64,000 bases of DNA from Omphiscola glabra. Lineage: Eukaryota; Mollusca; Gastropoda; Lymnaeidae. The stretch covers positions 31,464,013 through 31,528,012 of the forward strand of contig OZ024808.1 in the NCBI GenBank assembly GCA_964017045.1, given 5' to 3'. Position numbers and translations under genes: made by a program. Below are positions 6,466 to 63,985 of this stretch, one piece after another. The notes below the pieces were generated by a model. The model had not been told where the DNA came from. It ran no database searches and saw only the letters and a list, made by a program, of their open reading frames with translations. Each line of letters begins with the position of its first letter. Positions within the stretch are counted from its first letter, which is position 1.

Positions 6466-6844
6466 TCAGCAAGGAGAGTTTGATTTCTCACAAATAAATC
6501 GAAGCTGCCGTTCACAGTAATCATCGTCAAGCCAGTTGTTGCAGCCCCTGGCACAGTCTTGTCTACCCGCGGCATTGTCTGGTTGAAAAGATAAGGTCTG
6601 CATCGTCAGTTGGTCAATCTGCCGATGGTCATCTGACCACAAGAATTGGCCCTCCACGTCGATGTCATCCAATCCCATCCAAGTGCAACCAGTGGCCAGG
6701 CTAGAAAAGAGGGCGTACTTTTCCAAGGTTTTTGCCACGTACAGATGTGAGTCCAGACATCGGCACGTGATCGCTGCTTGTGAATAGTTGACGGGGACGT
6801 TAAAGACTGCAGCGAATGTTGTCGTGGTGTTGTAGGAATGTAGA
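6466..6844 (-). CDS. Lectin gene 1 exon 4 (C-type lectin domain)
   Basis: 379 nt from acceptor TGATTTATTTCAG to the TGA at 6466-6468. It holds nearly the whole CTLD: WMGLDD, WSDD, QPD, LDDDYC and FICEK motifs. It ends NSPC-stop, a tail shared with gene 2. There is an additional cysteine (Cys166) just before the WMGL motif where gene 2 has Trp. Confidence 0.85.
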
Positions 6845-9800
6845 CTGAAATAAATCAGGTCAACATTTCTTGATAAACTTTCAAGATACATATATCGAAA
6901 TGGTGATAACATCATTTTTTATTTAAAAAAATAATTGATTGAAAAAATAATCTATTATTTTGTATAATCTTAAAAGCGCTTTTGTCTAATTCTGGTAATT
7001 CCTTTTTTCAAATAATCTTCTTTTTTTCTTCTTTTGTAAACTTGCTAATTCCTTAGACTTCATGCTTTGTAAACTCTCTAATTCTTTAGTCTTCATGCTC
7101 TAATTCAGTGAGTTTATCTAAAAGTTCCCCAGTATTTTTCACTGATTTATAATGAAATTAGCGAGTACTCGGCATGCATTGCAATGCCACTCTAAGAAAT
7201 AAAGTGTTTGTGTTTTAATAATGATTTTTGTAAGTACTTTTTACAAACACATTTTTTTTAACCGTCTGGTGCGTATTCGAATTAGTTAGAAGGTTTTTTG
7301 AAGCGTGAGCAGGCCATACACAGCTGTCCATTTGAGAAGCATGGGTTTTCAAAATTTAGTTTAAACACTTGTAGCGATTCAATAGCTTTTTTTGAATTTA
7401 TATTTATATGGCACATTTATTACATATAAAATAGATGTACTCATTCAGAAACCTATTTAATAAGTCACATACAAAATGAAATCTCACAGTTTTTATTTAA
7501 TTCAATTCGACCCACTAATAAATAGCTTTATTTGAAAATATATTTACATAGCTCATATAAAAAAATAACAAATTTAAGGGCCACGGCCCCAAACATAATA
7601 TTGTAAAATGGTTGTACTGATTCAGAAACCTATTGCAAGCGTGCACACAACAACTCACTGAAGGTTTATCGCAATCAGATGAATGGTATAGGAACGCATA
7701 CGGAAATTATATTTAAATAGCTCATAGCTGAAAAAAATAAATTATGGCCCTTGGTCCAAAACTGATTATTGCAAAATGGTTGTACCAATTCAGAAACCTA
7801 CTAAATTATGTCACAAACAAACGGAAATATCGCTGTTTGTATTTAATTAAATTCCATCAACGTATGCATTGCCTCTGTTTAAAATTATATTTGTATAGTC
7901 CATTAAATAAAAAAACACACATTTAGGGCCCTCAACCCCAAAAGGAATATTGTAAAATGGTTATACTAATTCAGAAAGCTACTTATTATGTCACACACAA
8001 ATTGAAATGTCGCTATTTTTATATGGTTAAAATTTCATCTAACAATGCATTAGTTCTTTTTGAAATTATATTTATATTGCTCATATTAGATGTAAGGAGC
8101 GCCGGCCTGAAATTGAATGTTTTAAAATGATTGTACTAATTTACAAACCTTAGCGGGCCGGCGCATATCAATTCACCAAAGTTTTATCGCAATCGGATGA
8201 ATGGTATATGAACACATATTGAAATTACATTTATATATCTAACATAAAGTGGGAAACGAATTTAGGGCCCCCGGCCACAAACCGTATATTGTAGAATGGT
8301 TGTATTATTTCAGAGACCTACTTATCATGCCACACACAAAGGTTAGCGTCGGTTTTTGTATTTGATAACAATTCTATCCACCCAAGCATTAACTCTGTTT
8401 GAAATTATATTTATATAGTTCATAAAAGAAATAAAAGAATTTAGGGCCCCTGGATAAAATGAAGTATGTTAAAAGAGTTGTAATGACTCAGAAAAATGCC
8501 CGGGTCTGTGGACAACAACTCACTAAAGTTTTATCGCAATTGCATGAATGGTGTAGAAGCGCAAACGGTTTGCAATTATATTTATACAGCTCATATTAGA
8601 AAAAAACGAACATAGGGACCTTGGCTAAAACGGAATATTTTAAAATGGTTGTAATTATTCAGAAACCTTTGAGTCCGTGCTCACAGCATCTCTGCAAAGT
8701 TTTATCGCATTGTGATAAATGGTATAGGAGCTCATACGGAAATAATTTTTACAAAGCTCATTAAAAACAAAAATTAGGGCCAACGGCCAAAAATTGAATA
8801 TTTTAAAAGGGTTGTAATAATTAGAAAAATGCACTGGTATGTGGACAACATATCACCAAAGTTTTATCGCAATCACATGAATGGTGTAGGAGCACATATG
8901 AGACATACATACATACACACATACATACATACATCCATATAGACAGACATTCATTTCTATATATATATAGATACGTATGAAAAATGTAGTGGGTTTTTTA
9001 TTATCTATTTTCGTGAAAGTAATACCACGTTTGGGGGTGGAGAGTATATTTCATGCATATTCGCCCCTATATAAATGAACCTCACAAAGGTTGAAAATTC
9101 TTTGAAAGATTTATTATAGGGCTTTGCTTTAAATGATACATTTGATTTCTCTTAAGGCAGGGGGGAGCGCGGTTGCCCCGTTTCAAAATAGAAAATGTTT
9201 AATCTCTTGCACTTTTTAAAAGATTTTAATGGGACAATTTTTAAATGTTTCCTGCACTCGCACTTCTCCCCCCCCCCCCCACCCCGAAACTTTTTCAGTA
9301 ATAATTGTGACCCCTTTTTGTCCGAACCACTCAAGCAAGTTACCAATGTTAAAGGTTACCTTTCTATTGGTCTAAACTGTTTCGATCGAGCTCTACTTTG
9401 AGTAAAAACTGGTATGCCTAATGGTTATGGTCCATCTGGTGTGCCTAATGGTTATGGTCCAACTAGTGTGCCTAATGGTTATGGCCTAACTAGTGTACCT
9501 AAGGGTTAAGGCCCAACGCTTTACTTACAACGATATAAAGCTTTGTGACGTCAGGCATATTCATTTAAATTATTTTGATACGGCACCTTTTTAAGGGATA
9601 AATTCAAATGCGTCTTCCAGCCCCACACCCCCCCCCCCCCCAGGCGAACAGATATATAAAGTTTAAAAGCTACTTTAATTCTATATATTAATTTTTACAA
9701 ATAAAGCTAAATAAGTTTTTTTTTAAATTCCATTCTAGACTCAGACGCTATTTGATATATAGTACAGACAAGAATAACATGTAAAAGACTGTGCTGAAGC

Positions 9801-12198
9801 CGTTTGAAGGAAATTGTAGAAAACAATAAGATTGGGGTAGGCTTTGTCTATTTCTTTTGCGGCTGGGATCCAAATATTAATAATTAAAAAAAGGCAACCG
9901 CATTTGGTCAACGATTTTAATAAGACCATTTTTAAATGTTAGCGGCCTCAGTTGAGTGATAACTATTGCAATTTATTTACAAGTCCTTTCAGCTATTATA
10001 GTATTTTAGAGTTACGTTAAAATATATCAAACGATTTGTTATAGAGCTCCCTACAGTAATAAAATATATATTTTATGGTGCCGGTTTTATTGATGGACAT
10101 GAGTCAAAGAATCCCGGGACAGCCGGGTATATCAGCTAGTATATATATGATTCAAAGTAATCCCGGGAGTACCGGTTATAACTGGTAGTATATATTTATT
10201 GCTAAACACCCTTTCATATATAAATGATAATTGTCTCAAATCTTTTTCATTTTGTTTGCAGTCATAATTTACAATAGCTGCAAGCCAATGCTAATCAAAG
10301 GTGGCAAATGGGGACGAGGCCTAGATGCCCTACCAATTAATATATATTGATAAATGGGCTACCCGGGTCAAAAAGACGATTTGGCGCCCCTAGACTTGGT
10401 GAAGAAATGGAATGAATTGCTAATAAAGTAATAATTAAAAACGATATCAGAAAAAGAAGAAAGTAATTTAATTTGTTTTTATACTTTGATAATTAAAATA
10501 TGATCTACTAGAACGCCAATGAAACAGAGATGAACTATAATCGAACCTGAACTCTGGGTAACTGTCACAGCTGTCTGTCACATAGAGGTCTCCCTCTTTA
10601 GGAGTAGGTGGCAGCTGGGACGTACTCACACCAGATCCTGGTGTACACAGGAGTGTGATTTTATTGTACATGAAACTATGACATGTCTTTGGGTACCTAT
10701 GGAGATGTGACATGAAACTATGACATGTCTTTGGGTACCTGTGGAGATGTGACATGAAACTATGACATGTCTTTGGGTACCTGTGGAGATGTGACATGAC
10801 ACTATGACATGTCTTTGGGTACCTGTGGAGATGTGACATGAAACTATGACATGTCTTTGGGTACCTGTGGAGATGTGACATGACACTATGACATGTCTTT
10901 GGGTACCTGTGGAGATGTGACATGAAACTATGACATGTCTTTGGGTACCTGCGGAGATGTGACATGAAACTATGAAATGTCTTTGGGTACCTGTGGAGAT
11001 GTGACATGAAACTATGACATGTCTTTGGGTACCTGTGGAGATGTGACATGACACTATGACATGTCTTTGGGTACCTGTGGAGATGTGACATGACACTATG
11101 ACATGTCTTTGGGTACCTGTGGAGATGTGACATGAAACTATGACATGTCTTTGGGTACCTGTGAAGATGTGACATGAAACTATGAAATGTCTTTGGGTAC
11201 CTATGAAGATGTGACATGAAACTATGACATGTCTTTGGGTACCTGTGGAGATGTGACATGAAACTATGACATGTCTTTGGGTACCTGTGGAGATGTGACA
11301 TGACACTATGACATGTCTTTGGGTACCTGTGAATATGTGACATAAAACTATGACATGTCTTTGGGTACCCGTGAAGATGTGACATGAAACTATGACATGT
11401 CTTTGGGTACCTGTGGGAATATGGCATAACGATAGTTTGTTATAAGAGTAACAACATGTTTTGTAGAATCAAATTAATACTAAGTCTCTGATTCAGCCAA
11501 ACTGACATAAGTTCATAAGTCCGAAAATTGATAAAATAGTTCATTGGACACATCACTAATTGGCTGTATAAATTGATAATTGGAAATGATAAGTCTTAGG
11601 GAACTATACAAAATGATAAGTCTTAGTGAACTATACAAAATGATAAGTCTTAGGGAGCTATACAAAGATGATATGAGCTGTTTCAAGATGTGTTTTTTAA
11701 ACATTGTCAATATCATTATGTCTTTGTACAGCTGACATCACAACTTATCTGTGACAACTATAGCATTACCTTTTTGTACAACTGACAGCACAACTTATCT
11801 GTGACGACTCGTTCCAGCCTGGTCCTAACCTCAAAGGTCCACAAGTTGTAGCCAGTTTTTTCTTAAATAAATTCGCCCCAAAACTTGTGTCTTGTCCATG
11901 CAAATGTGTGAACCTATCAAAACCTTAAACAAAATATGTGAAATTCATTTGAAATGTCGAGTTGATTCATTAACTTTTTTTTAAAATTCCATTTAAAAAC
12001 ACATTCAATTTGTCTTATATCCACGCACCAGTCATTACATCCAGTTATCCACTCTTTGTTTCATTAATGAAAAACATATACGTAAATCCAACAATCCACT
12101 AAGATTTCATGGTAATGTCTATAATGATATGAACTCAGATTTAAAACTAGAGATAAATACTCACTGAACATAATGAAGAGTGTTTTTATCAGGAACAT
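6466..12198 (-). CDS. Lectin gene 1: secreted PAN-like + C-type lectin protein (4 exons)
   Basis: Four-exon model: 12165-12198, 11770-11923, 10547-10696, 6466-6844, joining to 717 nt (238 residues plus stop). Junction phases are 1, 2, 2 and fit at every join. Residues 1-12 start a hydrophobic signal peptide. Cys39, 56, 60, 68 and 80 have PAN/apple-like spacing across exons 2-3. Exon 4 is a CTLD: Cys140, WMGLDD at 168-173, QPD at 200-202, LDDDYC at 218-223, Cys231. QPD in the long loop is classically associated with galactose-type binding, but the usual WND is replaced by LDD, so sugar specificity is uncertain. Likely role (family knowledge plus inference): secreted pattern-recognition lectin of innate immunity. 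Intron 2 carries an 18-unit acceptor array, so exon 3 may be longer in some transcripts. The start was chosen because the 34-nt first coding exon matches gene 2 exactly in length and phase and ends at a consensus donor (GTGAGT). Confidence 0.72.
7370..8930. repeat. Degenerate long-unit repeat in intron 3 of lectin gene 1
   Basis: Several diverged units of roughly 150-330 bp share GAAATTATATTTATATAG, a TTAGGGCCC..GGCC box, TTTTAAAATGGTTGTA and AGTTTTATCGCAATC. It ends in an ACAT/ACAC microsatellite. A related fragment lies at 33541-33590. Class unknown; it resembles an interspersed non-coding element inserted or duplicated repeatedly. Confidence 0.7.
8902..8980. repeat. ACAT/ATAG-rich microsatellite
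   Basis: Runs of ACAT then ATAGACAGACATTC and (TA)n; follows directly on the long-unit repeat. Confidence 0.8.
9411..9512. repeat. 24-27-bp minisatellite, about 4 units
   Basis: GTGCCTAATGGTTATGG repeated four times with decay at the right end. Confidence 0.85.
10105..10190 (+). mobile_element. Candidate Helitron-type 3' ends (two in tandem)
   Basis: CCCGG-GACAG-CCGGG hairpin (10113-10127) followed 8 nt later by CTAG-T (10136-10140), the arrangement expected for a Helitron 3' terminus (hairpin, then CTRR, inserted before T). A second diverged copy has a CCCGGGAGTACCGG core (10162-10175) and CTGG-T. No Rep/helicase sequence is seen, so at most non-autonomous ends. Confidence 0.35.
10547..10696 (-). 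CDS. Lectin gene 1 exon 3 (PAN-like, second half, and linker)
   Basis: 150 nt using the innermost acceptor (CTCCATAG/G); all three paralogues give 150 nt for this exon. It encodes YPKTCHSFMYNK, a Pro/Ser-rich linker and DSCDSYPEF, and ends in phase 2 before GTTCGA. Gene 1 has a weaker donor than the GTACAA of genes 2 and 3. Seventeen further acceptor copies lie upstream at 42-bp steps to 11410, all in the same phase. Confidence 0.68.
10670..11427 (-). repeat. 42-bp minisatellite built from the exon-3 acceptor of lectin gene 1
   Basis: Eighteen units of 42 bp. Each contains the intron end CTCCACAG and the start of exon 3 (GTACCCAAAGACATG...). The distance from first to last acceptor is 714 nt, exactly 17 units. 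The exon frame is open throughout (stop-free from 11427 to 10468), encoding repeats of the type RYPKTCHSFMSHLH. One unit (near 11368) has lost the AG. Genes 2 and 3 have the same seed with 1-2 and about 6 units. Confidence 0.9.
11580..11670. repeat. 28-32-bp minisatellite, 3 units
   Basis: AAATGATAAGTCTTAGGGAA then CTATAC, three units, in intron 2 of lectin gene 1. Confidence 0.85.
11770..11923 (-). CDS. Lectin gene 1 exon 2 (PAN-like, first half)
   Basis: 154 nt, with acceptor after a TTTTGTTTAAG tract and donor AAAAAG/GTAATG. It encodes the conserved stretch TTCGP..LGPGWNESS then ISCAVSCTK. Differences from gene 2 exon 2 include several synonymous third-position changes in this frame only, which supports coding. 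A partial, donor-dead duplicate of its 3' end lies just downstream at about 11708-11769. Confidence 0.7.
12165..12198 (-). CDS. Lectin gene 1 exon 1 (signal peptide start)
   Basis: The first coding exon is 34 nt, starts MFLIKTLFIMF and ends in phase 1 before donor GTGAGTATT. It is hydrophobic as expected for a secretion signal. The signal continues into exon 2. Length and phase are identical to gene 2 exon 1. Confidence 0.65.
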
Positions 12199-13415: not shown

Positions 13416-13427
13416 TTTTTCCATATA

Positions 13428-16890: not shown

Positions 16891-17004
16891 GTCCCTTAAA
16901 GCCTCTAACTTCAAATTAGTATAGTTTGAATTTAAGTAGTATGACATCAACCGGGATATCTAAATAAATGAATTACATTTATTTTTATGTCGTTAATCTG
17001 TATC

Positions 17005-17130
17005 TCTCAAAAAGGAGAGTTTGTTTTCTTTATATCTCTCAACAAGGAGAGTTTTTATATCTCAACAAGGAGAGTTTGTTTTCTTTGTATCTCTCAACAA
17101 GGAGAGTTTATATCTCTCAACAAGGAGAGT
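17005..17130 (-). repeat. Minisatellite derived from the stop-codon end of lectin gene 2
   Basis: About five copies of a unit containing CTCTCAACAAGGAGAGTTT (plus strand), spaced 20-32 bp. The innermost copy is the last codons and TGA of exon 4 itself (17110-17130), so the array grew outward from the coding end into the 3' UTR. Confidence 0.8.
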
Positions 17131-17495
17131 TTGTCTTTTCACAAATAAAGGGATAATCCGAATCACAGAAGTCGTCGTCTAACTGCGAGCCACACCCAGT
17201 CACGCAATCTTGGCGCCCTCTGGCGTCGTCTGGTTCAAAAGCGAACGCTTGCATCGTCAGTGGGTCAATCTGCTGATGGTCTTCTGACCATACAAATTGA
17301 CCCTCTTCTTCAAGGTCGTCCAACCCCATCCAGGTCCACCCAGAGGCCATGCTAGAGAAAAGGTCGTATTCCCCAGGTGTCTTTGCCACGTACAGATGTG
17401 AGTCCAGACACTGACACGTGACAGAAGCTTGTGTGTAGTTGACAGGGACGGGAAAATATGCAGCAAATGTGGTCAAGTTGTTGTAGGAATGTACA
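17117..17495 (-). CDS. Lectin gene 2 exon 4 (C-type lectin domain)
   Basis: 379 nt, exactly the length of gene 1 exon 4. Acceptor is GGCATTATTATTTCAG. It contains WTWMGLDD, WSEDHQQ, EPDD, QLDDDFC and FICEK motifs and ends NSPC-stop. The stop end is the seed of the short array just downstream (17005-17130). Confidence 0.85.
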
Positions 17496-20400
17496 CTGAA
17501 ATAATAATGCCAATAATCCTTGACAATAATGTGATTAAAACCACTGATTTGACATGTGTCAAAAAAGAAATGAAATTGATAATAGAGAATAAGTCACTTA
17601 ACACAACATCACGTGATAGAAATGATAGATCTATAAACTCGTTTAAGCTTAAAATAACTTGGAAAGTAAGACAATTTTGTTTATTCCAGTTGTTCTCTTT
17701 AGAATTTCAGTTTTTTCTATCGTCCACTTGGTTTATTAAAAATTCTACTTTAGGGACTTGTCACATACCCGCACTTCATATTTGTAACATATGTTCTATT
17801 GATATTTAATCTCCATTTGTTTGTTTACAAACAATGTTTAATCACTGTTTCTTTAGAAACAATGTTTGATCCATGTTTAGAAGCAATGTTTGATCCCTGT
17901 TTAGAAGCAATGTTTGATCCATGTTTAGAAGCAATGTTTGATCACTCTTTGTTCAGAGATAATGTTTAATCGTTGTTAAGAAACAATGTTTAATCCCTCT
18001 TTGTTTAGAAACAATGTGTAATCCCTTTTTGTTTAGAAACAATGTTTAATCCCTTAATTCCTAACTTGTTTTTAATGGAAAAAGAATGCATTATTATTTA
18101 AGAAATGTTTTTTTTTTATTTAATCAGATTAATTATTCTTTTAATGCATTTGGCTCTTGTGTGATTTTACAGTACTCTCTAAGCTCATCTTAATTTCAGT
18201 AATAATTTAATTTTTTTTAAATGCCATCTGCTAGAAAGACAATGTAATAAATGAACTATAGTTGTACCTGAATTCTGGGTAACTGTCACAGCTGTCTGTC
18301 ACATAGAGGTCCCCCTCTTTAGCACTAGGTGGCAGCTGGGACGTACTCACACCAGATCCTGGTGTACAAAGTTTTGTGATTTTATTGTACATGAAACTAT
18401 GACATGTCTTTCGGTACCTGTGAAGTTGGGATTAAAAACTATGACATCTCTTTGGGTGAAATGTGGAGATGTGACTACAAATAAGGAATCTAAAATAGGC
18501 ATTTATTCTTGGAATCAGTAAAACAGACTCGAAATCCAAGCAAGAAAATCGATTTGTTTGATATCCATTTGGTTGTTATCGTTCTGTTTGATATTGATTT
18601 GTTGATATGACTTTGTTGATATAGGTTCTGGAAACATAGCCGCTTAATAGCAGATACATTTATTTATCAAAACTATACATTTGAAGACATTCTATGCTGT
18701 TTTCGCAAGGGTAAAATAAGTGTGTGCTGCATAATATAGGGTAAACTATATATGTACTACCTACTATATGGTAAAATAAATATATGCTGCATACTCTAGG
18801 TTAAAATAACTATGTGCTGCAATGGCTATCGTAACATAACTGTATGCCGAATACTATGGTAAAACAAATACATGCAAAATACTCTATGAAAAACTGCTGC
18901 TACACACAAGTGAAATGTAACGCCCCCCCCCCCCCCCACTTCACCTGAACACTGTTCCCGACCAAGTGAACTGTTTACCCAATAATTACTTGAATAGAGC
19001 AGGATTGTAAAAGATCTTCACTCTTCATGGTGGGAAACGACATAATTGATCTTGTACTTTGTGCTCTTAAATCATACAACATGTTTATTTTATCAAAAAT
19101 CAAAACGAATTATTTCTATTAAATGATTTGATGATTGACATTTTTCATTTTCGAAAGTAACCTTTAAAAACGTGTATTTTTCATGCAGTTTTAACAACTA
19201 CTGAGAGATAAATAAGGAAAAAATTGAGAAATAACTTTTCTTGTCCTTGTCACAAGATGAACCATACAACGCAACAGTAACCATACAACGCAACAGTAAC
19301 CATACAACGCAACAGTAACCATACAACGCAACAGTAACCATACAACGCAACAGTAACCATACAACGCAACAGTAACCATACAACGCAACAGTAACCATAC
19401 AACGCAACAGTAACCATACAACGCAACAGTAACCATACAACGCAGCAGAAACCATACAACGCAGCAGCAACCATACAACGCAACAGTAACCATACAACGC
19501 AACAGAAACCATACAACGCAACAGTAACTATACAACGCAACAGAAACCATACAACGCAACAGTAACCATACAACGCAACAGTAACCATACAACGCAACAG
19601 AAACCATACAACGCAACAGTAACCATACAACGCAACAGAAACCATACAACGCAACAGTAACCATACAACGCAGCAGAAACCATACAACGCAACAGTAACC
19701 ATACAACGCAACAGAAACCATACAACGCAACAGTAACCATACAACGCAACAGAAACCATACAACGCAGCAGAAACCATACAACGCAACAGTAACCATACA
19801 ACGCAACAGAAACCATACAACGCAGCAGAAACCATACAACGCAACAGAAACCATACAACGCAACAGTAACCATACAACGCAACAGTAACCATACAACGCA
19901 ACAGTAACCATACAACGCAACAGTAACCATACAACGCAACAGTAACCATACAACGCAACAGTAACCATACAACGCAACAGTAACCATACAACGCAACAGT
20001 AACCATACAACGCAGCAGAAACCATACAACGCAGCAGAAACCATACAACGCAACATAAGTGTAACCGTACAAATATTATGAAAGATGGCCCTTAGTTTAG
20101 TCACATTATCTTTCAAATTACAACTCTTGATACAACTGATAGTACAGCTTATCATTGATTACTTAAACATTATATCTTGATACAGCAGATAGAATAGCTT
20201 ATCTGTAAATACTAATAATGTACCTATTGGTAAATCTGATATAACTTTTGTCTATGAGGACTATAACATTACCTCTTTGTACAACTGACAGCACACATTA
20301 TCTGTGACAACCATAACATTACCTCTTTGAACAATTGACAGCACAACTTATCTGTGACAACCATAACATTACCTCCTTGTACAACTGACAGCACAACTTA

Positions 20401-20961
20401 TCTGTGACAACCATAACATTACCTCATTGTACAACTGACAGCACAACTTTTCTGTGACAACCATTACATTATGTCTTTGTACAACTGACATCACAACTTA
20501 TCTGTGACGACTATAACATTACCTCTTTCTACAACTGACAGCACAACTTATCTGTGACGACTCGTTCCAGCCTGGTCCTAACCTCACAGGCCCACAAGTG
20601 GTAGCCATTTTTTTCCTAAATAAATTCGCACCAAAATTTGGTGTGGCTTGTCCTTGTACATACTTGAACCTTACAAAACCTTAAAAAAGATATGAACTTC
20701 ATATGAAATGTCCAGTCAAATGATTAAAAATGCAAAATTTTATTTTGAAAAATTCGAAAAGGCAAGAAAATACCAAATAAATATTTGTATGCTCTAATGG
20801 ATAAAATGGATCAACTTCTACATTCTTTATTCTCCTTTTTTCATACTTTATATATACCCATTGAATTCTCAGCAAATCCACTAATCCAATTGTATTTGTA
20901 TCGTATATCCATGATCGGTATACTCACATAGCGTAAGCAAAACTACCGTAGCCAGTGTCAT
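17117..20961 (-). CDS. Lectin gene 2: secreted PAN-like + C-type lectin protein (4 exons)
   Basis: Four exons: 20928-20961, 20523-20679, 18268-18417, 17117-17495, joining to 720 nt (239 residues plus stop) with phases 1, 2, 2. Residues 1-12 (MTLATVVLLTLC) form a good signal-peptide core. The PAN-like cysteines match gene 1. The CTLD has WMGLDD, WSED, EPD (201-203) where gene 1 has QPD, and LDDDFC. EPD is intermediate between the classical EPN (mannose) and QPD (galactose) motifs, so ligand preference may differ between paralogues (inference). This is the cleanest copy: one good exon-3 acceptor, consensus donors and no frameshift. Introns are 248, about 2100 and 772 nt; the second holds the 19-bp array and the donor-derived array. 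Confidence 0.75.
17818..18060. repeat. 24-28-bp minisatellite, about 10 units
   Basis: TGTTTAGAAGCAATGTTTGA then TCCC, in intron 3 of lectin gene 2. Confidence 0.9.
18268..18417 (-). CDS. Lectin gene 2 exon 3 (PAN-like, second half, and linker)
   Basis: 150 nt between acceptor AATCCCAACTTCACAG/G and donor TTCAG/GTACAA. It encodes YRKTCHSFMYNK, the linker and DSCDSYPEF. The neighbouring upstream 42-bp unit (about 18440-18475) has lost its acceptor AG, leaving a single working site. Confidence 0.75.
18690..18900. repeat. About 33-bp degenerate minisatellite
   Basis: Five or six units around TATGTGCTGCATACTATAGG and TAAAATAA, in intron 2 of lectin gene 2. Confidence 0.75.
19259..20054. repeat. 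19-bp minisatellite in intron 2 of lectin gene 2
   Basis: About 42 units of AACCATACAACGCAACAGT with A/G and T/A point variants (CAGCAG, CAGAA). Because 19 is not a multiple of 3 the minus strand reads through in all three frames, producing long cysteine-rich spurious ORFs. Not a gene. Confidence 0.95.
20120..20522 (-). repeat. 50-bp minisatellite built from the exon-2 donor of lectin gene 2
   Basis: Units of about 50 bp carry the last bases of exon 2 (plus-strand CTCTTTGTACAACTGACAG) and the donor (CATTACC). Five or six units (20262-20522) are well preserved; 20120-20260 holds older diverged units. Four units keep a GT donor, while the one next to the real exon (about 20473) has lost it. 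Extending the exon into the array would hit TAA at once. Confidence 0.85.
20523..20679 (-). CDS. Lectin gene 2 exon 2 (PAN-like, first half)
   Basis: 157 nt, one codon longer than in gene 1. Acceptor follows ATCTTTTTTAAG and donor is AAAGAG/GTAATG. It encodes FVRFKYVQGQ then ATTCGPVRLGPGWNESS and ISCAVSCRK. The 50 bp around its donor are tandemly repeated downstream (20120-20522). Confidence 0.7.
20928..20961 (-). CDS. Lectin gene 2 exon 1 (signal peptide)
   Basis: 34 nt, ATG to phase-1 donor CTAT/GTGAGTATAC. It encodes MTLATVVLLTL, with Cys12 completed by exon 2. Same length and phase as gene 1 exon 1. Confidence 0.72.
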
Positions 20962-23705: not shown

Positions 23706-24189
23706 GTAAGAGCCCATTCTTCTATTTTGTTATAATCGTTTACATAATTAATATTCAAAATCATTAAACATCATTAAAATAATTAATCTGTAAAAGTCTT
23801 TAAAAAAGATTAATATGTAATAATCTTTAAAATAACTAAGCTGTAATAATCTTTAAAATAGTTAATATGTAGCTATCTTTAAAATAATCCATCTGTAATA
23901 ATCTTAAAAATAATTAACAGGTAGTAATCTTTTATATCATTAATCTGCTACAATTAAATTAAATATATAACGGGTAAATGGTATACTTCTAAAATTGTCA
24001 AGTTGTAATCATCTGTCCAGCTGAAATCCTTTGATTTTCATGCACATGTAAAACAAACACACACACACAAAGATAACTGGGTCTTACAAAATCAGACATG
24101 AGACACATCATACACTGAAAGTATATTATTGTAAAGAAGCAAATTATGGCTGACGATTATTGTTGTGTGCATTGATTATAATTTGTGAC

Positions 24190-44600: not shown

Positions 44601-47600
44601 TAAGATTAAACACTAAAATGTTATGAAAAGGGTAGTAAGATTAAACACTAAAATGTTATGAAAAGGGTAGTAAGATTAAACACCCAAAATGTTATGAATA
44701 GGGTAGTAAGATTAAACACTAAAATGTTATGAAAAGGGTAGTAAGATTAAACACTAAAATGTTATGAAAAGGGTAGTAAGATTAAACACTAAAATGTTAT
44801 GAAAAGGGTAATAAGATTAAACACTAAAATATTATGAATAGGGTAGTAAGATTAAACACTAAAATGTTATGAAAAGGGTAGTAAGATTAAACACTAAAAT
44901 GTTATGAAAAGGGTAGTAAGATTAAACACCCAAAATGTTATGAATAGGGTAGTAAGATTAAACACTAAAATGTTATGAAAAGGGTAGTAAGATTAAACAC
45001 TAAAATGTTATGAAAAGGGTAGTAAGATTAAACACCCAAAATGTTATGAATAGGGTAGTAAGATTAAACACCCAAAATGTTATGAATAGGGTAGTAAGAT
45101 TAAACACTAAAATGTTATGAAAAGGGTAGTAAGATTAAACACCCAAAATGTTATGAATAGGGTAGTAAGATTAAACACTAAAATGTTATGAAAAGGGTAG
45201 TAAGATTAAACACCCAAAATGTTATGAATAGGGTAGTAAGATTAAACACCCAAAATGTTATGAATAGGGTAGTAAGATTAAACACTAAAATGTTATGAAT
45301 AGGGTAGTAAGATTAAACACTAAAATGTTATGAAAAGTGTAGTAAGATTAAACACTAAAAGGTTATGAATAGGGTAGTAAGATTAAACACTAAAATGTTA
45401 TGAATAGGGTAGTAAGATTAAACACAAAAATGTTATGAAATGGGTAGTAAGATTAAACACTAAAATGTTATGAATAGGGTAGTAAGATTAAACACTAAAA
45501 TGTTATGAATAGGGTAGTAAGATTAAACACTAAAATGTTATGAATAGGGTAGTAAGATTAAACACTAAAATGTTATGAATAGGGTAGTAAGATTAAACAC
45601 TAAAATGTTATGAATAGGGTAGTAAGATTAAACACTAAAATGTTATGAAAAGGGTAGTAAGATTAAACACTAAAATGTTATGAAATGGGTAGTAAGATTA
45701 AACCCTAAAATGTTATGAATAGGGTAGTAAGATTAAACACTAAAATGTTATGAAAAGGGTAGTAAGATTAAACACTAAAATGTTATGAATAGGGTAGTAA
45801 GATTAAACACTAAAATGTTATGAATAGGGTAGGAAGATTAAACACTAAAATGTTATGAATAGGGTAGTAAGATTAAACACTAAAATGTTATGAATAGGGT
45901 AGTAAGATTAAACACTAAAATGTAATGAAAAGGGTAGTAAGATTAAACACTAAAATGTTATGAATAGGGTAGTAAGATTAAACACTAAAATGTTATGAAT
46001 AGGGTAGTAAGATTAAACACTAAAATGTTATGAATAGGGTAGTAAGATTAAACACTAAAATGTTATGAATAGGGTAGTAAGATTAAACACTAAAATGTTA
46101 TGAAAAGGGTAGTAAGATTAAACACTAAAATGTTATGAATAGGGTAGTAAGATTAAACACTAAAATGTTATGAATAGGGTAGTAAGATTAAACACTAAAA
46201 TGTTATGAATAGGGTAGTAAGATTAAACACTAAAATGTTATGAAAAGGGTAGTAAGATTAAACACTAAAATGTTATGAAAAGGGTAGTAAGATTAAACAC
46301 TAAAATGTTATGAAAAGGGTAGTAAGATTAAACACTAAAATGTTATGAATAGGGTAGTAAGATTAAACACTAAAATGTTATGAAAAGGGTAGTAAGATTA
46401 AACCCTAAAATGTTATGAATAGGGTAGTAAGATTAAAAACTAAAATGTTATGAATAGGGTAGTAAGATTAAACACGAAAATGTTATGAATAGGGTAGTAA
46501 GATTAAACACTAAAATGTTATAAAAAGGGTAGTAAGATTAAACACTAAAATGTTATGAATAGGGTAGTAAGATTAAACACTAAAATGTTATGAATAGGGT
46601 TTTAAGATTAAACCCTAAAATGTTATGAATAGGGTAGTAATATTAAACACTAAAATGTTATGAATAGGGTAGTAAGATTAAACACTAAAATGTTATGAAA
46701 AGGGTAGTAAGATTAAACACTAAAATGTTATGAAAAGGGTAGTAAGATTAAACACTAAAATGTTATGAAAATGGTAGTAAGATTAAACACTAAAATGTTA
46801 TGAAAAGGGTAGTAAGATTAAACCCTAAAATGTTATGAATAGGGTAGTAAGATTAAACACTAAAATGTTATGAATAGGGTAGTAAGATTAAACACTAAAA
46901 TGTTATGAAAAGGGTAGTAAGATTAAACACTAAAATGTTATGAAAAGGGTAGTAAGATTAAACACCCAAAATGTTATGAATAGGGTAGTAAGATTAAACA
47001 CTAAAATGTTATGAAAAGGGTAGTAAGATTAAACACTAAAATGTTATGAAAAGGGTAGTAAGATTAAACACTAAAATGTTATGAAAAGGGTAGTAAGATT
47101 AAACACTAAAATATTATGAATAGGGTAGTAAGATTAAACACTAAAATGTTATGAAAAGGGTAGTAAGATTAAACACTAAAATGTTATGAAAAGGGTAGTA
47201 AGATTAAACACCCAAAATGTTATGAATAGGGTAGTAAGATTAACTACTAAAATGTTATGAAAAGGGTAGTAAGATTAAACACTAAAATGTTATGAAAAGG
47301 GTAGTAAGATTAAACACCCAAAATGTTATGAATAGGGTAGTAAGATTAAACACCCAAAATGTTATGAATAGGGTAGTAAGATTAAACACTAAAATGTTAT
47401 GAAAAGGGTAGTAAGATTAAACACCCAAAATGTTATGAATAGGGTAGTAAGATTAAACACTAAAATGTTATGAAAAGGGTAGTAAGATTAAACACCCAAA
47501 ATGTTATGAATAGGGTAGTAAGATTAAACACCCAAAATGTTATGAATAGGGTAGTAAGATTAAACACTAAAATGTTATGAATAGGGTAGTAAGATTAAAC

Positions 47601-50600
47601 ACAAAAATGTTATGAAAAGTGTAGTAAGATTAAACACTAAAATGTTATGAATAGGGTAGTAAGATTAAACACTAAAATGTTATGAATAGGGTAGTAAGAT
47701 TAAACACTAAAATGTTATGAAATGGGTAGTAAGATTAAACACTAAAATGTTATGAAAAGGGTAGTAAGATTAAACACCCAAAATGTTATGAATAGGGTAG
47801 TAAGATTAAACACTAAAATGTTATGAATAGGGTAGTAAGATTAAACACTAAAATGTTATGAATAGGGTAGTAAGATTAAACACTAAAATGTTATGAAATG
47901 GGTAGTAAGATTAAACACTAAAATGTTATGAATAGGGTAGTAAGATTAAACACTAAAATGTTATGAATAGGGTAGTAAGATTAAACACTAAAATGTTATG
48001 AATAGGGTAGTAAGATTAAACACTAAAATGTTATGAATAGGGTAGTAAGATTAAACACTAAAATGTTATGAATAGGGTAGTAAGATTAAACACTAAAATG
48101 TTATGAATAGGGTAGTAAGATTAAACACTAAAATGTTATGAAAAGGGTAGTAAGATTAAACACTAAAATGTTATGAAATGGGTAGTAAGATTAAAACCTA
48201 AAATGTTATGAATAGGGTAGTAAGATTAAACACTAAAATGTTATGAAAAGGGTAGTAAGATTAAACACTAAAATGTTATGAATAGGGTAATAAGATTAAA
48301 CACTAAAATGTTATGAATAGGGTAGTAAGATTAAACACTAAAATGTTATGAATAGGGTAGTAAGATTAAACACTAAAATGTTATGAATAGGGTAGTAAGA
48401 TTAAACACTAAAATGAAATGAAAAGGGTAGTAAGATTAAACACTAAAATGTTATGAATAGGGTATTAAGATTAAACACTAAAATGTTATGAATAGGGTAG
48501 TAAGATTAAACACTAAAATGTTATGAATAGGGTAGTAAGATTAAACACTAAAATGTTATGAATAGGGTAGTAAGATTAAACACTAAAATGTTATGAAAAG
48601 GGTAGTAAGATTAAACACTAAAATGTTATGAATAGGGTAGTAAGATTAAACACTAAAATGTTATGAATAGGGTAGTAAGATTAAACACTAAAATGTTATG
48701 AATAGGGTAGTAAGATTAAACACTAAAATGTTATGAAAAGGGTAGTAAGATTAAACACTAAAATGTTATGAAAAGGGTAGTTAGATTAAACACTAAAATG
48801 TTATGAAAAGGGTAGTAAGATTAAACACTAAAATGTTATGAATAGGGTAGTAAGATTAAACACTAAAATGTTATGAAAAGGGTAGTAAGATTAACCCTAA
48901 AATGTTATGAATAGGGTAGTAAGATTAAAAACTAAAATGTTATGAATAGGGTAGTAAGATTAAACACTAAAATGTTATGAATAGGGTAGTAAGATTAAAC
49001 ACTAAAATGTTATAAAAAGGGTAGTAAGATTAAACACTAAAATGTTATGAATAGGGTAGTAAGATTAAACACTAAAATGTTATGAATAGGGTAGTAAGAT
49101 TAAACCCTAAAATGTTATGAATAGGGTAGTAATATTAAACACTAAAATGTTATGAATAGGGTAGTAAGATTAAACACTAAAATGTTATGAAAAGGGTAGT
49201 AAGATTAAACACTAAAATGTTATGAAAAGGGTAGTAAGATTAAACACTAAAATGTTATGAAAAGGGTAGTAAGATTAAACACTAAAATGTTATGAAAAGG
49301 GTAGTAAGATTAAACCCTAAAATGTTATGAATAGGGTAGTAAGATTAAACACTAAAATGTTATGAATAGGGTAGTAAGATTAAACACTAAAATGTTATGA
49401 AAAGGGTAGTAAGATTAAACACTAAAATGTTATGAAAAGGGTAGTAAGATTAAACACTAAAATGTTATGAAAAGGGTAGTAAGATTAAACACTAAAATGT
49501 TATGAATAGGGTAGTAAGATTAAACACTAAAATGTTATGAATAGGGTAGTAAGATTAAACACTAAAATGTTATGAAAAGGGTAGTAAGATTAAACACTAA
49601 AATGTTATGAATAGGGTAGTAAGATTAAACACTAAATTTTATGAAAAGGGTAGTAAGATTAAACCCTAAAATGTTATGAATAGGGTAGTAAGATTAAACA
49701 CTAAAATGTTATGAATAGGGTAGTAAGATTAAACCCTAAAATGTTATGAATAGGGTAGTAAGATTAAACACTAAAAGGTTATGAATAGGGTAGTAAGATT
49801 AAACACTAAAATGTTATGAATAGGGTAGTAAGATTAAACACTAAAATGTTATGAATAGGGTAGTAAGATTAAACACTAAAATGTTATGAATAGGGTAGTA
49901 AGATTAAACACTAAAATGTTATGAATAGGGTAGTAAGATTAAACACTATAATGTTATGAAAAGGGTAGTAAGATTAAACACTAAAATGTTATGAATAGGG
50001 TAGTAAGATTAAACACTAAAATGTTATGAATAGGGTAGTAAGATTAAACACTAAAATGTTATGAAAAGGGTAGTAAGTTTAAACACTAAAATGTTATGAA
50101 TAGGGTAGTAAGATTAAACCCTAAAATGTTATGAATAAGGTAGTAAGATTAAACACTAAAATGTTATGAATAGGGTAGTAAGATTAAACACTAAAATGTT
50201 ATGAATAGGGTAGTAAGATTAAACACTAAAATGTTATGAAAAGGGTAGTAAGATTAAACACTAAAATGTTATGAATAGGGTAGTAAGATTAAACACTAAA
50301 TTTTATGAAAAGGGTAGTAAGATTAAACCCTAAAATGTTATGAATAGGGTAGTAAGATTAAACACTAAAATGTTATGAATAGGGTAGTAAGATTAAACCC
50401 TAAAATGTTATGAATAGGGTAGTAAGATTAAACACTAAAAGGTTATGAATAGGGTAGTAAGATTAAACACTAAAATGTTATGAATAGGGTAGTAAGATTA
50501 AACACTAAAATGTTATGAATAGGGTAGTAAGATTAAACACTAAAATGTTATGAATAGGGTAGTAAGATTAAACACTAAAATGTTATGAATAGGGTAGTAA

Positions 50601-52617
50601 GATTAAACACTATAATGTTATGAAAAGGGTAGTAAGATTAAACACTAAAATGTTATGAATAGGGTAGTAAGATTAAACACTAAAATGTTATGAATAGGGT
50701 AGTAAGATTAAACACTAAAATGTTATGAAAAGGGTAGTAAGATTAAACACTAAAATGTTATGAATAGGGTAGTAAGATTAAACCCTAAAATGTTATGAAT
50801 AAGGTAGTAAGATTAAACACTAAAATGTTATGAATAGGGTAGTAAGATTAAACACTAAAATGTTATGAAAAGGGTAGTAAGATTAAACACTAAAATGTTA
50901 TGAATAGGGTAGTAAGATTAAACACTAAAATGTTATGAATAGGGTAGTAAGATTAAACACTAAAATGTTATGAATAGGGTAGTAAGATTAAACACTAAAA
51001 TGTTATGAAATGGGTAGTAAGATTAAACACTAAAATGTTATGAATAGGGTAGTAAGATTAAACACTAAAATGTTATGAATAGGGTAGTAAGATTAAACAC
51101 TAAAATGTTATGAATAGGGTAGTAAGATTAAACACTAAAATGTTATGAATAGGGTAGTAAGATTAAACACTAAAATGTTATGAATAGGGTAGTAAGATTA
51201 AACACTAAAATGTTATGAATAGGGTAGTAAGATTAAACACTAAAATGTTATGAAAAGGGTAGTAAGATTAAACCCTAAAATGTTATGAATAGGGTAGTAA
51301 GATTAAACACTAAAATGTTATGAATAGGGTAGTAAGATTAAACCCTAAAATGTTATGAATAGGGTAGTAAGATTAAACACTAAAATGTTATGAAAAGGGT
51401 AGTAAGATTAAACACTAAAATGTTATGAATAGGGTAGTAAGATTAAACACTAAAATGTTATGAATAGGGTAGTAAGATTAAACACTAACATGTAATGAAT
51501 AGGGTAGTAAGATTAAACACTAAAATGTTATGAAAAGGGTAGTAAGATTAAACCCTAAAATGTTATGAATAGGGTAGTAAGATTAAACACTAAAATGTTA
51601 TGAATAGGGTAGTAAGATTAAACACTAAAATATTATGAATAGGGTAGTAAGACTAAACACTAAAATGTTATGAAAAGGGTAGTAAGATTAAACACTAACA
51701 TGTTATGAATAGGGTAGTAAGATTAAACACTAAAATGTTATGAAAAGGGTAGTAAGATTAAACACTTAAATGTTATGAATAGGGTAGTAAGATTAAACAC
51801 TAAAATGTTATGAATAGGGTAGTAAGATTAAACACTAAAATGTTATGAAAAGGGTAGTAAGATTAAACACTAAAATGTTATGAAAAGGGTAGTAAGATTA
51901 AACACTAAAATGTTATGAAAAGGGTAGTAAGATTAAACACTAAAATGTTATGAAAAGGGTAGTAAGATTAAACACTAAAATGTTATGAAAAGGGTAGTAA
52001 GATTAAACACTAAAATGTTATGAAAAGGGTAGTAAGATTAAACACTAAAATGTTATGAATAGGGTAGTAAGATTAAACCCTAAAATGTTATGAAAAGGGT
52101 AGTAAGATTAAACCCTAAAATGTTATGAAAAGGGTAGTAAGATTAAACACTAAAATGTTATGAATAGGGTAGTAAGATTAAACCCTAAAATGTTATGAAA
52201 AGGGTAGTAAGATTAAACCCTAAAATGTTATGAATAGGGTAGTAAGATTAAACACTAAAATGTTATGAATAGGGTAGTAAGATTAAACCCTAAAATGTTA
52301 TGAAAAGGGTAGTAAGATTAAACCCTAAAATGTTATGAATAGGGTAGTAAGATTAAACACTAAAATGTTATGAAAAGGGTAGTAAGATTAAACACTAAAA
52401 TGTTATGAAAAGGGTAGTAAGATTAAACCCTAAAATGTTATGAATAGGGTAGTAAGATTAAACACTAAAATTTTATGAAAAGGGTAGTAAGATTAAACAC
52501 TAAAATGTTATGAAAAGGGTAGTAAGATTAAACACTAAAATGTTATGAAAAGGGTAGTAAGATTAAACACTAAAATGTTATGAATAGGGTAGTAAGATTA
52601 AACACTAAAATGTTATG
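38686..52617. repeat. 35-bp satellite array, about 13.9 kb
   Basis: About 398 units of a 35-bp monomer made of GATTAAACACTAAAATG followed by TTATGAAAAGGGTAGTAA. Main variants: GAAAAGGG or GAATAGGG; CACCCAAAATG (36 bp, only about 40.3-47.8 kb); AACCCTAAAATG (only about 45.7-52.5 kb). Shared rare variants show higher-order repeats: about 664 bp (49.6-50.9 kb) and blocks of about 2.3-2.5 kb. No ORF of note. Confidence 0.98.
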
Positions 52618-53393: not shown

Positions 53394-53588
53394 AAAACAC
53401 AAGGGAGACCATAGACACTACCAGCACACGGGCCGTAACACCCCCCCCCCCCAACGCCAATATTTTGTACTTGATATTTTCATTCTTATTGTTAATTTTG
53501 TTTGTTTTTCGGCCATTCAATTTGAAATTTAAATCTAACAAAAATGTTCATTAAATGATAATGTTTTTTGCTATAATTCTAGATCACA

Positions 53589-54224
53589 ATGACAGCAAAT
53601 CAAGGGAAAATCACAATCGCCCTTTTGGGGAAAACCGGACATGGTAAAAGCGCAACTGGAAATACCATTCTGAAAAAGATGTGTTTTAAAGAGTCGTCCC
53701 ACTTGATCTCTTGCTCCAAACTTGTTAAAGATGGTGAAAATAAAATTGATGGCAATTTCGTAACTGTTTATGACACTCCGGGTCTCTACGACACGGGCGA
53801 CAACACGGCATCCGTGAAAAATAAGGCTGTTAAACATTGTGATATTTTGATGGAAGCTTGTCAAAATAGTGGAGTGAATGCCTTTATTTTAGTTCTTAAT
53901 GTCTGCTCTCCATTTACCGGAGAGGAAATAGAAACTGTTAACATATATGAAACAATTTTCGGGTCTGACTTCCTTAAAACCCATGGAATCCTCGTCTTCA
54001 CAAAAGGCGACAAATTATCTGAAGAAGAAGAAATTGGCGATTTTAAAATGTTTTTGGAAAATCAGCAACCCGAGATGAAAAGATTTGTTGAGAAATTTAA
54101 AGATAACATAGTTCTGATCGCCAATAGAGGAGCATTTGATGACATCCGAGGTCAGCATGGCAATGAACTATTACAATTATGTATAAACAAAGGGAGAGAA
54201 TGTCTCAGCGTACAAAATGTCTGA
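53589..54224 (+). CDS. GIMAP-like (AIG1-type) GTPase, copy B, C-terminus frameshifted
   Basis: 211 residues. G1 GKTGHGKS (14-21), G3 DTPG (62-65), G4 TKGD (138-141) and ANRGAFD are all canonical, so the G domain looks more intact than in copy A. Residue numbering matches copy A to beyond residue 140. Near 54188-54194 (AAAGGGAG) one extra base relative to copy A shifts the frame; the stop follows at 54222-54224. The downstream bases (ATGTCTGATTACGATAAATA) still encode the DYDKYA.DRR tail in another frame. The acceptor ATAATTCTAG ends six bases before the ATG. Either a recent truncation or an assembly error; the GTPase core is unaffected. Confidence 0.8.
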   Translation: MTANQGKITIALLGKTGHGKSATGNTILKKMCFKESSHLISCSKLVKDGENKIDGNFVTVYDTPGLYDTGDNTASVKNKAVKHCDILMEACQNSGVNAFILVLNVCSPFTGEEIETVNIYETIFGSDFLKTHGILVFTKGDKLSEEEEIGDFKMFLENQQPEMKRFVEKFKDNIVLIANRGAFDDIRGQHGNELLQLCINKGRECLSVQNV

Positions 54225-59149: not shown

Positions 59150-60510
59150 ATGTGCAGTGACAGTGGCTATATATGTAGATTAGGAGGGCAGAAATACCCG
59201 GGTGCCAGTGGCTATATGTGTAGATTAGGAGGGCAGAAATACCCGGGTGCCAGTGGCTATATGTGTAGATTAGGAGCAGCGGTGTATTGCCAAATTCGTA
59301 ACAAAGTGTTCGCAGTCAGTATCAATTTTGATTTTTTAAAAATTAGTACTTGATTTTAGGCATATTTATTTTTGAACTAACGGTTCGCACGAACCTGACC
59401 GAACCGGCTCCAAACTACCGCTGATTAGGAGGGCAGAAATACCCGGGTGTCGGTGGCTATATTTGTAGATTAGGAGGGCAGAAATACCCGGGTGCCAGTG
59501 GCTATATGTGTAGATTAGGAGGGCAGAAATATCCGGGTGCCAGTGGCTATATGTGTAGATTAGGAGGGCAGAAACACCCGGGTGCCAGTGGCTATATGTG
59601 TAGATTAGGAGGGCAGAAACACCCGGGCGCCAGTGGCTATATGTGTAGATTAGGAGGGCAGAAATACCCGGGTGCCAGTGGCTATATGTGTAGATTAGGA
59701 GGGCAGAAATATCCGGGTGCCAGTGGCTATATGTGTAGATTAGGAGGGCAGAAACACCCGGGTGCCAGTGGCTATATGTGTAGATTAGGAGCAGCGGTGT
59801 ATTGCCAAATTCGTAACAAAGTGTTCGCAGTCAGTATCAATTTTGATTTTTTAAAAATTAGTACTTGATTTTAGGCATATTTATTTTTGAACTAACGGTT
59901 CGCACGAACCTGACCGAACCGGCTCCAAACTACCGCTGATTAGGAGGGCAGAAATACCCGGGTGTCGGTGGCTATATTTGTAGATTAGGAGGGCAGAAAT
60001 ACCCGGGTGCCAGTGGCTATATGTGTAGATTAGGAGGGCAGAAATATCCGGGTGCCAGTGGCTATATGTGTAGATTAGGAGGGCAGAAACACCCGGGCGC
60101 CAGTGGCTATATGTGTAGATTAGGAGGGCAGAAATACCCGGGTGCCAGTGGCTATATGTGTAGATTAGGAGGGCAGAAATATCCGAGTGCCAGTGGCTAT
60201 ATGTGTAGATTAGGAGGGCAGAAACACCCGGGTGCCAGTGGCTATATGTGTAGATTAGGAGGGCAGAAACACCCGGGTGCCAGTGGCTATATGTGTAGAT
60301 TAGGAGGACAGAAACACCCGGATGCCAGTGGCTATATGTGTAGATTAGGAGGGCAGAAACACCCGGGTGCCAGTGGCTATATGTGTAGATTAGGAGGGCA
60401 GAAACACCCGGGTGCCAGTGGCTATATGTGTAGATTAGGAGGGCAGAAACACCCGGGTGCCAGTGGCTATATGTGTAGATTAGGAGGGCAGAAATATCCG
60501 GTTGTTAATG
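59150..60510. repeat. 45-bp minisatellite with about 515-bp higher-order unit
   Basis: GATTAGGAGGGCAGAAATAC then CCGGGTGCCAGTGGCTATAT and GTGTA, about 26 units in three runs. Two identical about 150-bp spacers (59268-59420 and 59783-59935, starting AGCAGCGGTGTATTGCC) separate the runs, spaced 515 bp. 45 bp is 15 codons, so a frame with MCRLGGQKYPGASGY repeats stays open; no start context or splice sites argue for a gene. Confidence 0.93.
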
Positions 60511-60747
60511 AACGCGATCTCCAAAATGAGCGTTGATTATATTTATTGGATGAATTAATCCAGAGTTAAAAACGGGGGATTGGACTTAGAAGATGACTCT
60601 CGACCTTGACAACATACACTCTAGCTAGCCCCTGCTTATAAAGGGGGTGGATGGGATACTCCAACCAGACATTACTTAGTTTTGCATCATTTTACACGGA
60701 AAGCGTCGGGAGAGATGATCGTTAAATATTTAAGGTGTTACTTGACC
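60511..60747. other. No recognised feature
   Basis: Short unique sequence between the 45-bp array and a LINE fragment. Confidence 0.5.
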
Positions 60748-61352: not shown

Positions 61353-61791
61353 TTAAAATTTTCCCAACAACTGTATACCCGCCCCCCCCCTTTTTTTTTT
61401 ACCCCTCTCGGCAAAAAGAGTTTGATTTCTCCAAATAAATGAAAATTGATATTCACAGAAATTGTCGTCCAATTCCTGGCCACATCCCATGACGCAGTCT
61501 TGTCGACCCAGGTGGTCATCTGGGCTGTTAGGAAAAAACAACATCTGCAGCATCAGTGGGTCAATGGGCTGATGGTCATCTGACCACACAAATTGACCCT
61601 CAACTTCAAGGTCGTCCAACCCAAGCCAAGTGCATGTCACAGAGAGGTTAGAAAAGAGGGCGCTTTTCTCCTCTGTTTTGGCCACGTAAAGATGTGAGCC
61701 CAGACACTGGCACGTGACAGCAGCTTGTGTGTAGTTGACAGGGACGGGAAAATATGCAGCAAAGCTGGTCGTCATGTTGTGGGAAAGTGTG
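61353..61791 (-). pseudogene. Lectin gene 3 exon 4 (frameshifted CTLD)
   Basis: Acceptor ATCAATCATTTCAG at 61792 upward; the codon split matches exon 3. The frame is intact from 61791 to about 61434. The long-loop motif is SPDD with two or three extra residues compared with genes 1 and 2. The end is frameshifted into GKKKRGG-type sequence. Confidence 0.7.
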
Positions 61792-62265
61792 CTGAAATGA
61801 TTGATATCAATCTATAGCTGGTCGTCATGTTGTGGGAAAGTGTGCTGAAATGATTGATGTCAATGTATAGCTGGTCGTCAAGTTGTGGGAAAGTGTGCTG
61901 AAATGATTGATATCAATGTATAGCTGGTCGTCATGTTGTGGGAAAGTGTGCTGAAATGATTGATGTCAATGTATAGCTGGTCGTCATGTTGTGGGAAAGT
62001 GTGCTGAAATGATTGATATCAATGTATAGCTGGTCGTCATGTTGTGGGAAAGTGTGCTGAAATGATTGATGTCAATGTATAGCTGGTCGTCATGTTGTGG
62101 GAAAGTGTGCTGAAATGATTGATGTCAATGTATAGCTGGTCGTCATGTTGTGGGAAAGTGTGCTGAAATGATTGATACTGGTCGTCATGTTGTGGGAAAG
62201 TGTGCTGAAATGATTGATACTGGTCGTCATGTTGTGGGAAAGTGTGCTGAAATGATTGATATCAA
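61765..62265 (-). repeat. 53-bp minisatellite built from the CTLD-exon acceptor of lectin gene 3
   Basis: Ten units starting at 61765, 61818, 61871, 61924, 61977, 62030, 62083, 62136, 62178 and 62220: eight at 53 bp, then 42-bp units. Each has the exon's first about 28 nt plus the intron end (GCTGAAATGATTGAT on plus), so each repeats a complete acceptor. 53 is not a multiple of 3, so outer acceptors change frame. Confidence 0.9.
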
Positions 62266-62324
62266 TGTATGAAAAATATAGCTTTAAACAAAGATAAGAA
62301 GAATAAGAATGAGAGTTCAAAACA

Positions 62325-63598: not shown

Positions 63599-63748
63599 CT
63601 GAATTCTGGGTAACTGTCACAGCTGTCAGTCACATAGAGGTCCCCCTCTTCAGCACTAGGTGGCAGCTGGGACGTACTCACACCAGATCCTGGTGTACAT
63701 AGTTTTGTGAGTTTATTGTACATGAAACTATGACATGTCTTTGGGTAC
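63599..63748 (-). CDS. Lectin gene 3 exon 3
   Basis: 150 nt, same size and phases as in genes 1 and 2. It encodes YPKTCHSFMYNKLTKLC, the linker with SAEEGDLYV and DSCDSYPEF. Confidence 0.7.
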
Positions 63749-63985
63749 CTGTGGAGATGTGACATGAAACTATGACATGTCTTTGGGTACCTGTGGAGAT
63801 GTGACATGAAACTATGACATGTCTTTGGCTACCTGTGGAGATGTCATTATACAGTACATAAATCTATAAAATTTAGTTTGGCTACCTGCTGAGATGTGAT
63901 ATTTACTGTTAACTAATATATGTCTTTGGTTACCTGTGAAGATGTGACATATAACTGTGACATGACTTTGGCTACCTGAGGAAAT
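63749..63985 (-). repeat. Degenerate 42-bp acceptor array upstream of lectin gene 3 exon 3
   Basis: Five further acceptor copies (exon-side G at 63790, 63832, 63885, 63933, 63975). The outermost, TTTATTTCCTCAG, is the best acceptor by consensus and is probably the original. The units at 63832, 63885, 63933 and 63975 begin G-TAG or G-TAA, a stop in the coding phase. Confidence 0.75.

Follow-up and report, generated by a model that had tools for sequence, protein, structure and literature searches.

Minisatellites of the mirage type straddle exon edges in a family of C-type lectin genes from a Lymnaea-like genome

Three small C-type lectin genes, all on the minus strand, lie in the stretch of DNA that was analysed (C16:31464013-31528012 of a 745-Mb genome; 64,000 nucleotides, here called the window), and tandem arrays straddle six of their exon edges. 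Each of the six arrays holds 18-40 bp of exon end together with a splice site or stop codon and the adjoining non-coding sequence. These are probably mirage-type minisatellites, that is, chance local tandem duplications which spanned an exon edge, were later expanded and were tolerated there. The data are best read as tandem duplication that is unbiased, or weakly biased, toward exon edges.

The layout of each lectin gene comprises an exon 1 with a signal-peptide-like start, exons 2 and 3, and an exon 4 encoding the lectin domain. Exon 4 of gene 1 (42.6 bits) and of gene 2 (47.2 bits) matched PF00059 (Lectin_C) above the cut-off, while exon 4 of gene 3 was not among the PF00059 matches listed and was identified through its 64% identity to gene 1. 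The exons were placed as follows.

12165..12198, minus strand: gene 1 exon 1, with start codon and signal-peptide-like end; donor GT after 12165
11770..11923, minus strand: gene 1 exon 2; splice sites checked
10547..10696, minus strand: gene 1 exon 3, counted from the exon-proximal acceptor; splice sites checked
6466..6844, minus strand: gene 1 exon 4, C-type lectin domain, up to the stop; PF00059 match
20928..20961, minus strand: gene 2 exon 1; splice check
20523..20679, minus strand: gene 2 exon 2; splice check
18268..18417, minus strand: gene 2 exon 3; acceptor preceded by about two degenerate 42-bp copies
17117..17495, minus strand: gene 2 exon 4, C-type lectin domain, up to the stop; PF00059 match
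C16:31533262-31533421, outside the window: gene 3 exon 2
63599..63748, minus strand: gene 3 exon 3; splice check
61416..61791, minus strand: gene 3 exon 4, C-type lectin domain; end approximate, 3' end out of frame

The frame of the gene 3 lectin exon is lost at its 3' end near an A/G run (window 61353-61440), and gene 3 may accordingly be a pseudogene, have a divergent end or contain an assembly error. A database protein search returned three matches, P0001, P0002 and P0003, all from Lymnaea stagnalis, of which P0001 covers 100% of a composite gene 1 query at 70% identity. Since the best BLAST partners of P0001, P0002 and P0003 are, respectively, paralogue A from outside the window (89%), gene 1 (84%) and gene 3 (88%), these three paralogues are probably older than the split from L. 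stagnalis.

Other repeats and open frames occur in the window. Between genes 2 and 3, at 38679-52617, lies a 14-kb satellite with about 397 copies of a 35-bp unit (96% match), and two AT-rich arrays at 23759-23945 and 36216-36342 have a nearly identical 26-bp unit. Neighbouring 45-bp arrays at 59366-59868 and 59881-60536 contain open frames with near-identical ends and look like a duplicated segment containing an array. Further open frames at 26915-27616 and 53583-54224 presumably resemble AIG1/GIMAP-type GTPases, given a P-loop motif.

A reading made earlier from the sequence alone had placed arrays at five exon edges, namely the exon-3 acceptors of genes 1 and 3, the exon-4 acceptor of gene 3, and the exon-2 donor and stop codon of gene 2. 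All five are present, and a sixth was found at the gene 1 exon-2 donor, with two copies.

11710..11809, minus strand: exon-2 donor of gene 1 spanned by a 50-bp array of two copies; 40 bp inside the exon
10668..11416, minus strand: 42-bp array over the gene 1 exon-3 acceptor, 17.8 copies; 29 bp inside the exon
20263..20558, minus strand: exon-2 donor of gene 2 spanned by a 50-bp array, 5.9 copies; 36 bp inside the exon
16999..17134, minus strand: stop codon of gene 2 spanned by a 23/32/55-bp array; the final 18 bp of coding sequence, counting the stop, lie in it
63720..63982, minus strand: 42-bp array over the gene 3 exon-3 acceptor, 3.0-5.7 copies (TRF); 29 bp inside the exon
61763..62270, minus strand: 53-bp array over the gene 3 exon-4 acceptor, 10 copies; 29 bp inside the exon; 42-bp variants at the far end

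The splice site lies inside the repeat unit, as had been proposed, and units hold exon sequence, a splice site or stop, and non-coding sequence. The arrays had also been said to start exactly at exon edges. They straddle the edges instead, and over all straddled edges of the family the exon-side ends were located 3-51 bp within the exon, the remainder of each array extending on the non-coding side.

The sample was widened to the family as a whole. The window and surrounding stretches, 258 kb in total, form a home cluster of eight genes (A, B, G1, G2, G3, D, E and F, where G1 to G3 are genes 1 to 3), and a further 15 diverged relatives from the same contig brought the number of lectin family members modelled to 23. 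The 15 relatives came from 18 hand-assembled exon-2/exon-4 pairs, with three pairs and the unpaired matches omitted, and are not a random sample. One exon 2-3-4 layout was found throughout, except that no exon 2 was found in E, and no additional introns were seen in the 23 gene models, which were built without transcripts. Splice sites were assigned as the GT or AG nearest the homologous position; that all assigned sites are GT or AG is a consistency check and not independent proof. The models provide 133 edges, including exon-2 acceptors for 17 of the 23 genes (missing in E and not placed in L040, L042 and L045-L047) and exon-1 donors for G1 and G2 only. Arrays were accepted at a TRF score of at least 50 and a period of at least 10. 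Eight extra lectin loci, L001-L008, were picked by domain score alone. Paralogue E (C16:31556470-31558150) joins exon 3 to exon 4 out of frame with the nearest GT, exon 4 itself being open, and may be decaying.

Counted per gene, 17 of the 133 edges were straddled against 6.2 expected (ratio 2.75, P = 0.0005), the background being the 89 array ends that fall in 1912 bins of 50 bp, all non-coding and no more than 1 kb from an edge. Twelve of the 17 arrays lie at splice edges, where they take in 11-51 bp of exon plus intron, and the other five at stops. The straddled donors belong to B, G1, G2, D, L038 and L039, and the straddled acceptors to A, B, G1, G3 (two edges) and L037. Four alternative threshold settings gave per-gene ratios of 2.4 to 4.1, and the genes beyond the window had 11 of 113 edges straddled against 5.3 expected. 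Arrays are very dense in the home cluster (250 after merging, or 0.97 per kb, which cover 36% of the 258 kb). When the cluster was circularly shifted, a mean of 2.7 edges was straddled compared with 13 observed, a number reached in 0 of 1000 shifts; the 13 of 48 cluster edges found inside arrays are no commoner than shifted points (null mean 17.6). Among the extra loci, the stops of L002 and L005 are straddled by one common unit and an acceptor of L006, placed by eye, is also straddled, giving 20 against 6.9 per gene (P = 0.0001). L002 and L005, with stop ends at 1842 and 1845, belong to a different lectin subfamily on C5, and their 26-bp array covers 5 bases of the coding end, counted back from the final base of the stop codon.

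The edges in one family had been treated as independent, and on this point the earlier interpretation was not upheld. Clustering of the repeat units reduced the 17 straddled edges to 10 events, and 4 of these 10 straddling clusters, compared with 1 of 86 background clusters, are common to more than one gene. The 42-bp unit was walked upstream of the exon-3 acceptor in five paralogues, yielding 11 copies in A, 3 in B, 18 in G1, 2 (degenerate) in G2 and 3 in G3, so that copy number ranges from 2 to 18 among paralogues in one assembly. At the exon-2 donor the 50-bp unit is repeated in B, G1 and G2, degenerate in G3 (two copies) and single in A. Judged by their units, the 42-bp exon-3-acceptor and 50-bp exon-2-donor arrays are ancestral duplications common to several paralogues. 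A single-copy seed had been claimed for every unexpanded paralogue, which does not hold for all of them: at the exon-2 donor there are two copies in gene 1 and a degenerate pair in gene 3, and the exon-3 acceptor of gene 2 carries about two degenerate copies.

In a genome search the 42-bp unit was found in the five paralogues and at a single orphan site of the same contig. Matches to the 50-bp unit lay in the cluster only and those to the 53-bp unit at the gene 3 exon-4 acceptor only, although absence of a match is no proof of rarity. Derivation of the units from a dispersed repeat or transposon was not supported, the matches found for the 42-, 50- and 53-bp units all lying in the family cluster or, for the 42-bp unit, also at the one orphan site on its contig. 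The orphan is a relic of a 42-bp array (L048:1-1401; C16:26931900-26933300) in which scraps of exon 3 are present, and no lectin gene was found in the 1.4 kb fetched around it.

When similar units at the same edge were collapsed, 10 events were counted against 6.0 expected (ratio 1.67, P = 0.09), with 86 clusters of non-edge arrays as background. Addition of the eight extra loci gave 12 against 6.7 (ratio 1.79, P = 0.05); for these loci two events were set against a nominal 16 edges, one acceptor and one stop per locus, with most of the acceptors placed inexactly and with no background of their own added. The proposed departure of array ends from random placement thus stands per gene and is borderline per event. 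Recurrence at edges, which had been thought hard to explain by random slippage, is real and extends outside the window; it is partly inherited, and the remainder is what the event test leaves at P = 0.09. That independent edge events exceed background is suggestive, not established.

A mutational process tied to exon boundaries, for example one linked to transcription or splicing, would make duplications arise preferentially there, and the event ratios of 1.67 in 23 genes and 1.79 in 31 loci are in its direction. Different units also recur at the same kinds of edge: three (50, 40 and 58 bp) at the exon-2 donor in separate lineages, and at stop codons four array clusters among the 23 genes and a fifth among the eight extra loci. 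On the other hand, the event-level P values reach only 0.09 and 0.05, and the window was chosen because of its array pattern; outside it, eight events unrelated to the window arrays stand against about 6 expected, a sum taken from the background rate. Stop codons, moreover, do not mark splice points, and a process linked to splicing alone would leave the arrays there unexplained. We consider such a process rather unlikely, and hold in the same doubt its specific form, in which splice sites and stops, as the borders of coding blocks, are favoured starting points of tandem duplication, at about 1.7 to 1.8 times background per event. If it were true, exon and gene ends would be hot spots of minisatellite birth and a steady supply of new splice sites. 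The same observations, namely the significant per-gene excess, the event test at P = 0.05 with the extra loci, and the recurrent units at the exon-2 donor and stops, count against chance duplication, which nevertheless remains our preferred reading.

Selection for redundant splice sites or stop codons could instead have retained the edge expansions, as the sequence-only reading had suggested for splice sites, and sharing between paralogues is indeed more frequent for edge arrays than for intronic arrays. Outside the arrays and exon flanks, little of the intron sequence aligns among the five close paralogues; the exceptions are some 0.5 kb upstream of exon 2, which A and G1 have in common, and a repeat in B and G1. 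Intronic arrays that are shared may thus have escaped notice, and the 4 of 10 versus 1 of 86 is not a clean comparison; poor intron alignment alone would make intronic arrays look unshared. The extra sites themselves gave no sign of preservation. In ten walked arrays the extra GT or AG was retained in 47 of 72 copies, compared with about 56 expected from decay elsewhere. Most of the shortfall comes from the L037 array (1 of 8), whose unit ends TG in nearly all copies; with this row and the drifted gene 1 exon-2 unit (0 of 4) removed as doubtful, 46 of 60 were retained against 46.7 expected. The walks in G1, G2 and G3 run beyond the TRF array into weak matches. Gene A lies outside the 72-copy sum, its re-estimated unit having slipped out of phase (0 of 10), and was walked by copy end instead: of its 11 copies, 5 (counting the one at the real acceptor) end in AG, and the array includes copies of 41, 45, 46 and 48 bp. 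Extra splice sites therefore decay like neighbouring bases, selection for redundancy is not supported, and we regard it as highly improbable.

The 42-bp unit is a multiple of three (3 x 14 residues), and use of the first acceptor would lengthen the lectin by a 14-residue repeat in as many as about 17 copies. Upstream of the exon-3 acceptor the exon frame is open for 741 bp in G1 and 183 bp in B. The gene 1 array is thus open throughout in frame and could possibly be translated. The open frame extends for just 72 bp in A, 12 in G2 and 78 in G3, however, and the Lymnaea database protein P0001 passes straight from exon 2 to one exon-3 start and lacks a repeat peptide. The other units mostly have lengths that three does not divide, and 7 of the 10 clusters are without any period divisible by 3, as by chance; the arrays do not in general keep the frame. 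Translation of the array as a family trait is not supported, given the early closure of the A, G2 and G3 frames, and we think it very unlikely that the exon-3 array is translated.

No array lay wholly within exons in 15,831 bp of exon, and the straddling ends cover 464 bp of it (2.9%). Most simply, exon-internal arrays would be missing because selection removes them. Under chance duplication with tolerance at edges, the first step would be a local tandem duplication whose unit happened to span an exon boundary, followed by expansion, presumably through ordinary slippage or unequal exchange. After duplication of a donor the first, exon-proximal donor should still be usable; after duplication of an acceptor the last acceptor should be; and after duplication of a stop the first stop would stay in place. 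Edge duplications of any period would then be tolerated because the exon-proximal site or first stop keeps the product unchanged, and the edge arrays are probably harmless. P0001, with its one exon-3 start, agrees with use of the exon-proximal acceptor, and amphioxus data on similar arrays back the idea by analogy. The per-gene over-representation would owe a good deal to persistence, exon-adjacent sequence being kept through paralogue divergence while most of the intron turns over.

The sequence-only reading knew of nothing similar, yet the same kind of structure has been described in amphioxus. Available excerpts report mirages in the Adh3, globin, troponin C and PGBD5 genes as minisatellite-like tandem duplications across intron-exon boundaries on both donor and acceptor sides, with units of 10-72 bp in Adh3, AG/GT kept in many but not all copies, and concerted evolution within an array (PMC3087553, PMC3902484). 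Adh3 data and globin RT-PCR suggest that regular splicing is undisturbed by them (PMC3087553). The lectin arrays likewise combine exon, intron and splice site in one boundary-spanning unit and affect donors and acceptors alike, which places them in the known mirage type. As far as those excerpts go, they differ in occupying several edges of one family, in being common to paralogues and in their Lymnaea-like host, and the stop-codon arrays are a feature of the lectin family for which no counterpart was found in the amphioxus accounts.

Two other systems, likewise seen in excerpt, are comparable. In human segmental-duplication genes, variable internal tandem repeats lie at exon-intron boundaries of recent paralogues, and some create new introns or alternative splicing according to transcripts (PMC2812944); the lectin family shares boundary repeats in paralogues, its arrays being known from genomic DNA alone. 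In the Rogers model introns are gained through tandem duplication of AGGT segments, with potato RdRp, vertebrate ATP2A1 and fission-yeast 24-bp arrays as cases, the intron spanning several tandem copies in the last (PMC4974935). AG|GT is similarly present in most exon-2-donor and exon-3-acceptor units of the lectin family, so that one copy can carry both splice dinucleotides. Unlike in that model as excerpted, the lectin introns already existed and end within copies, and no new intron was seen. No molluscan mirage was recognised in the literature searched (titles and the starts of abstracts, few subscription journals), within which the novelty lies in the host group, in the repeated occurrence of the arrays in a single family and in those at stop codons.

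Mirages have been described, in the accounts available, from amphioxus, and here they recur in a lectin family from a Lymnaea-like genome, with two duplications old enough to be shared. Because they are repeated in this family, with those two duplications common to several paralogues, the finding suggests that mirages are generally a side effect of very frequent tandem duplication in a genome. With its many paralogues of graded age, the family is a test bed for the origin of new splice forms or introns from such arrays, and also lets exon edges be judged as true hot spots or as places where duplications survive.
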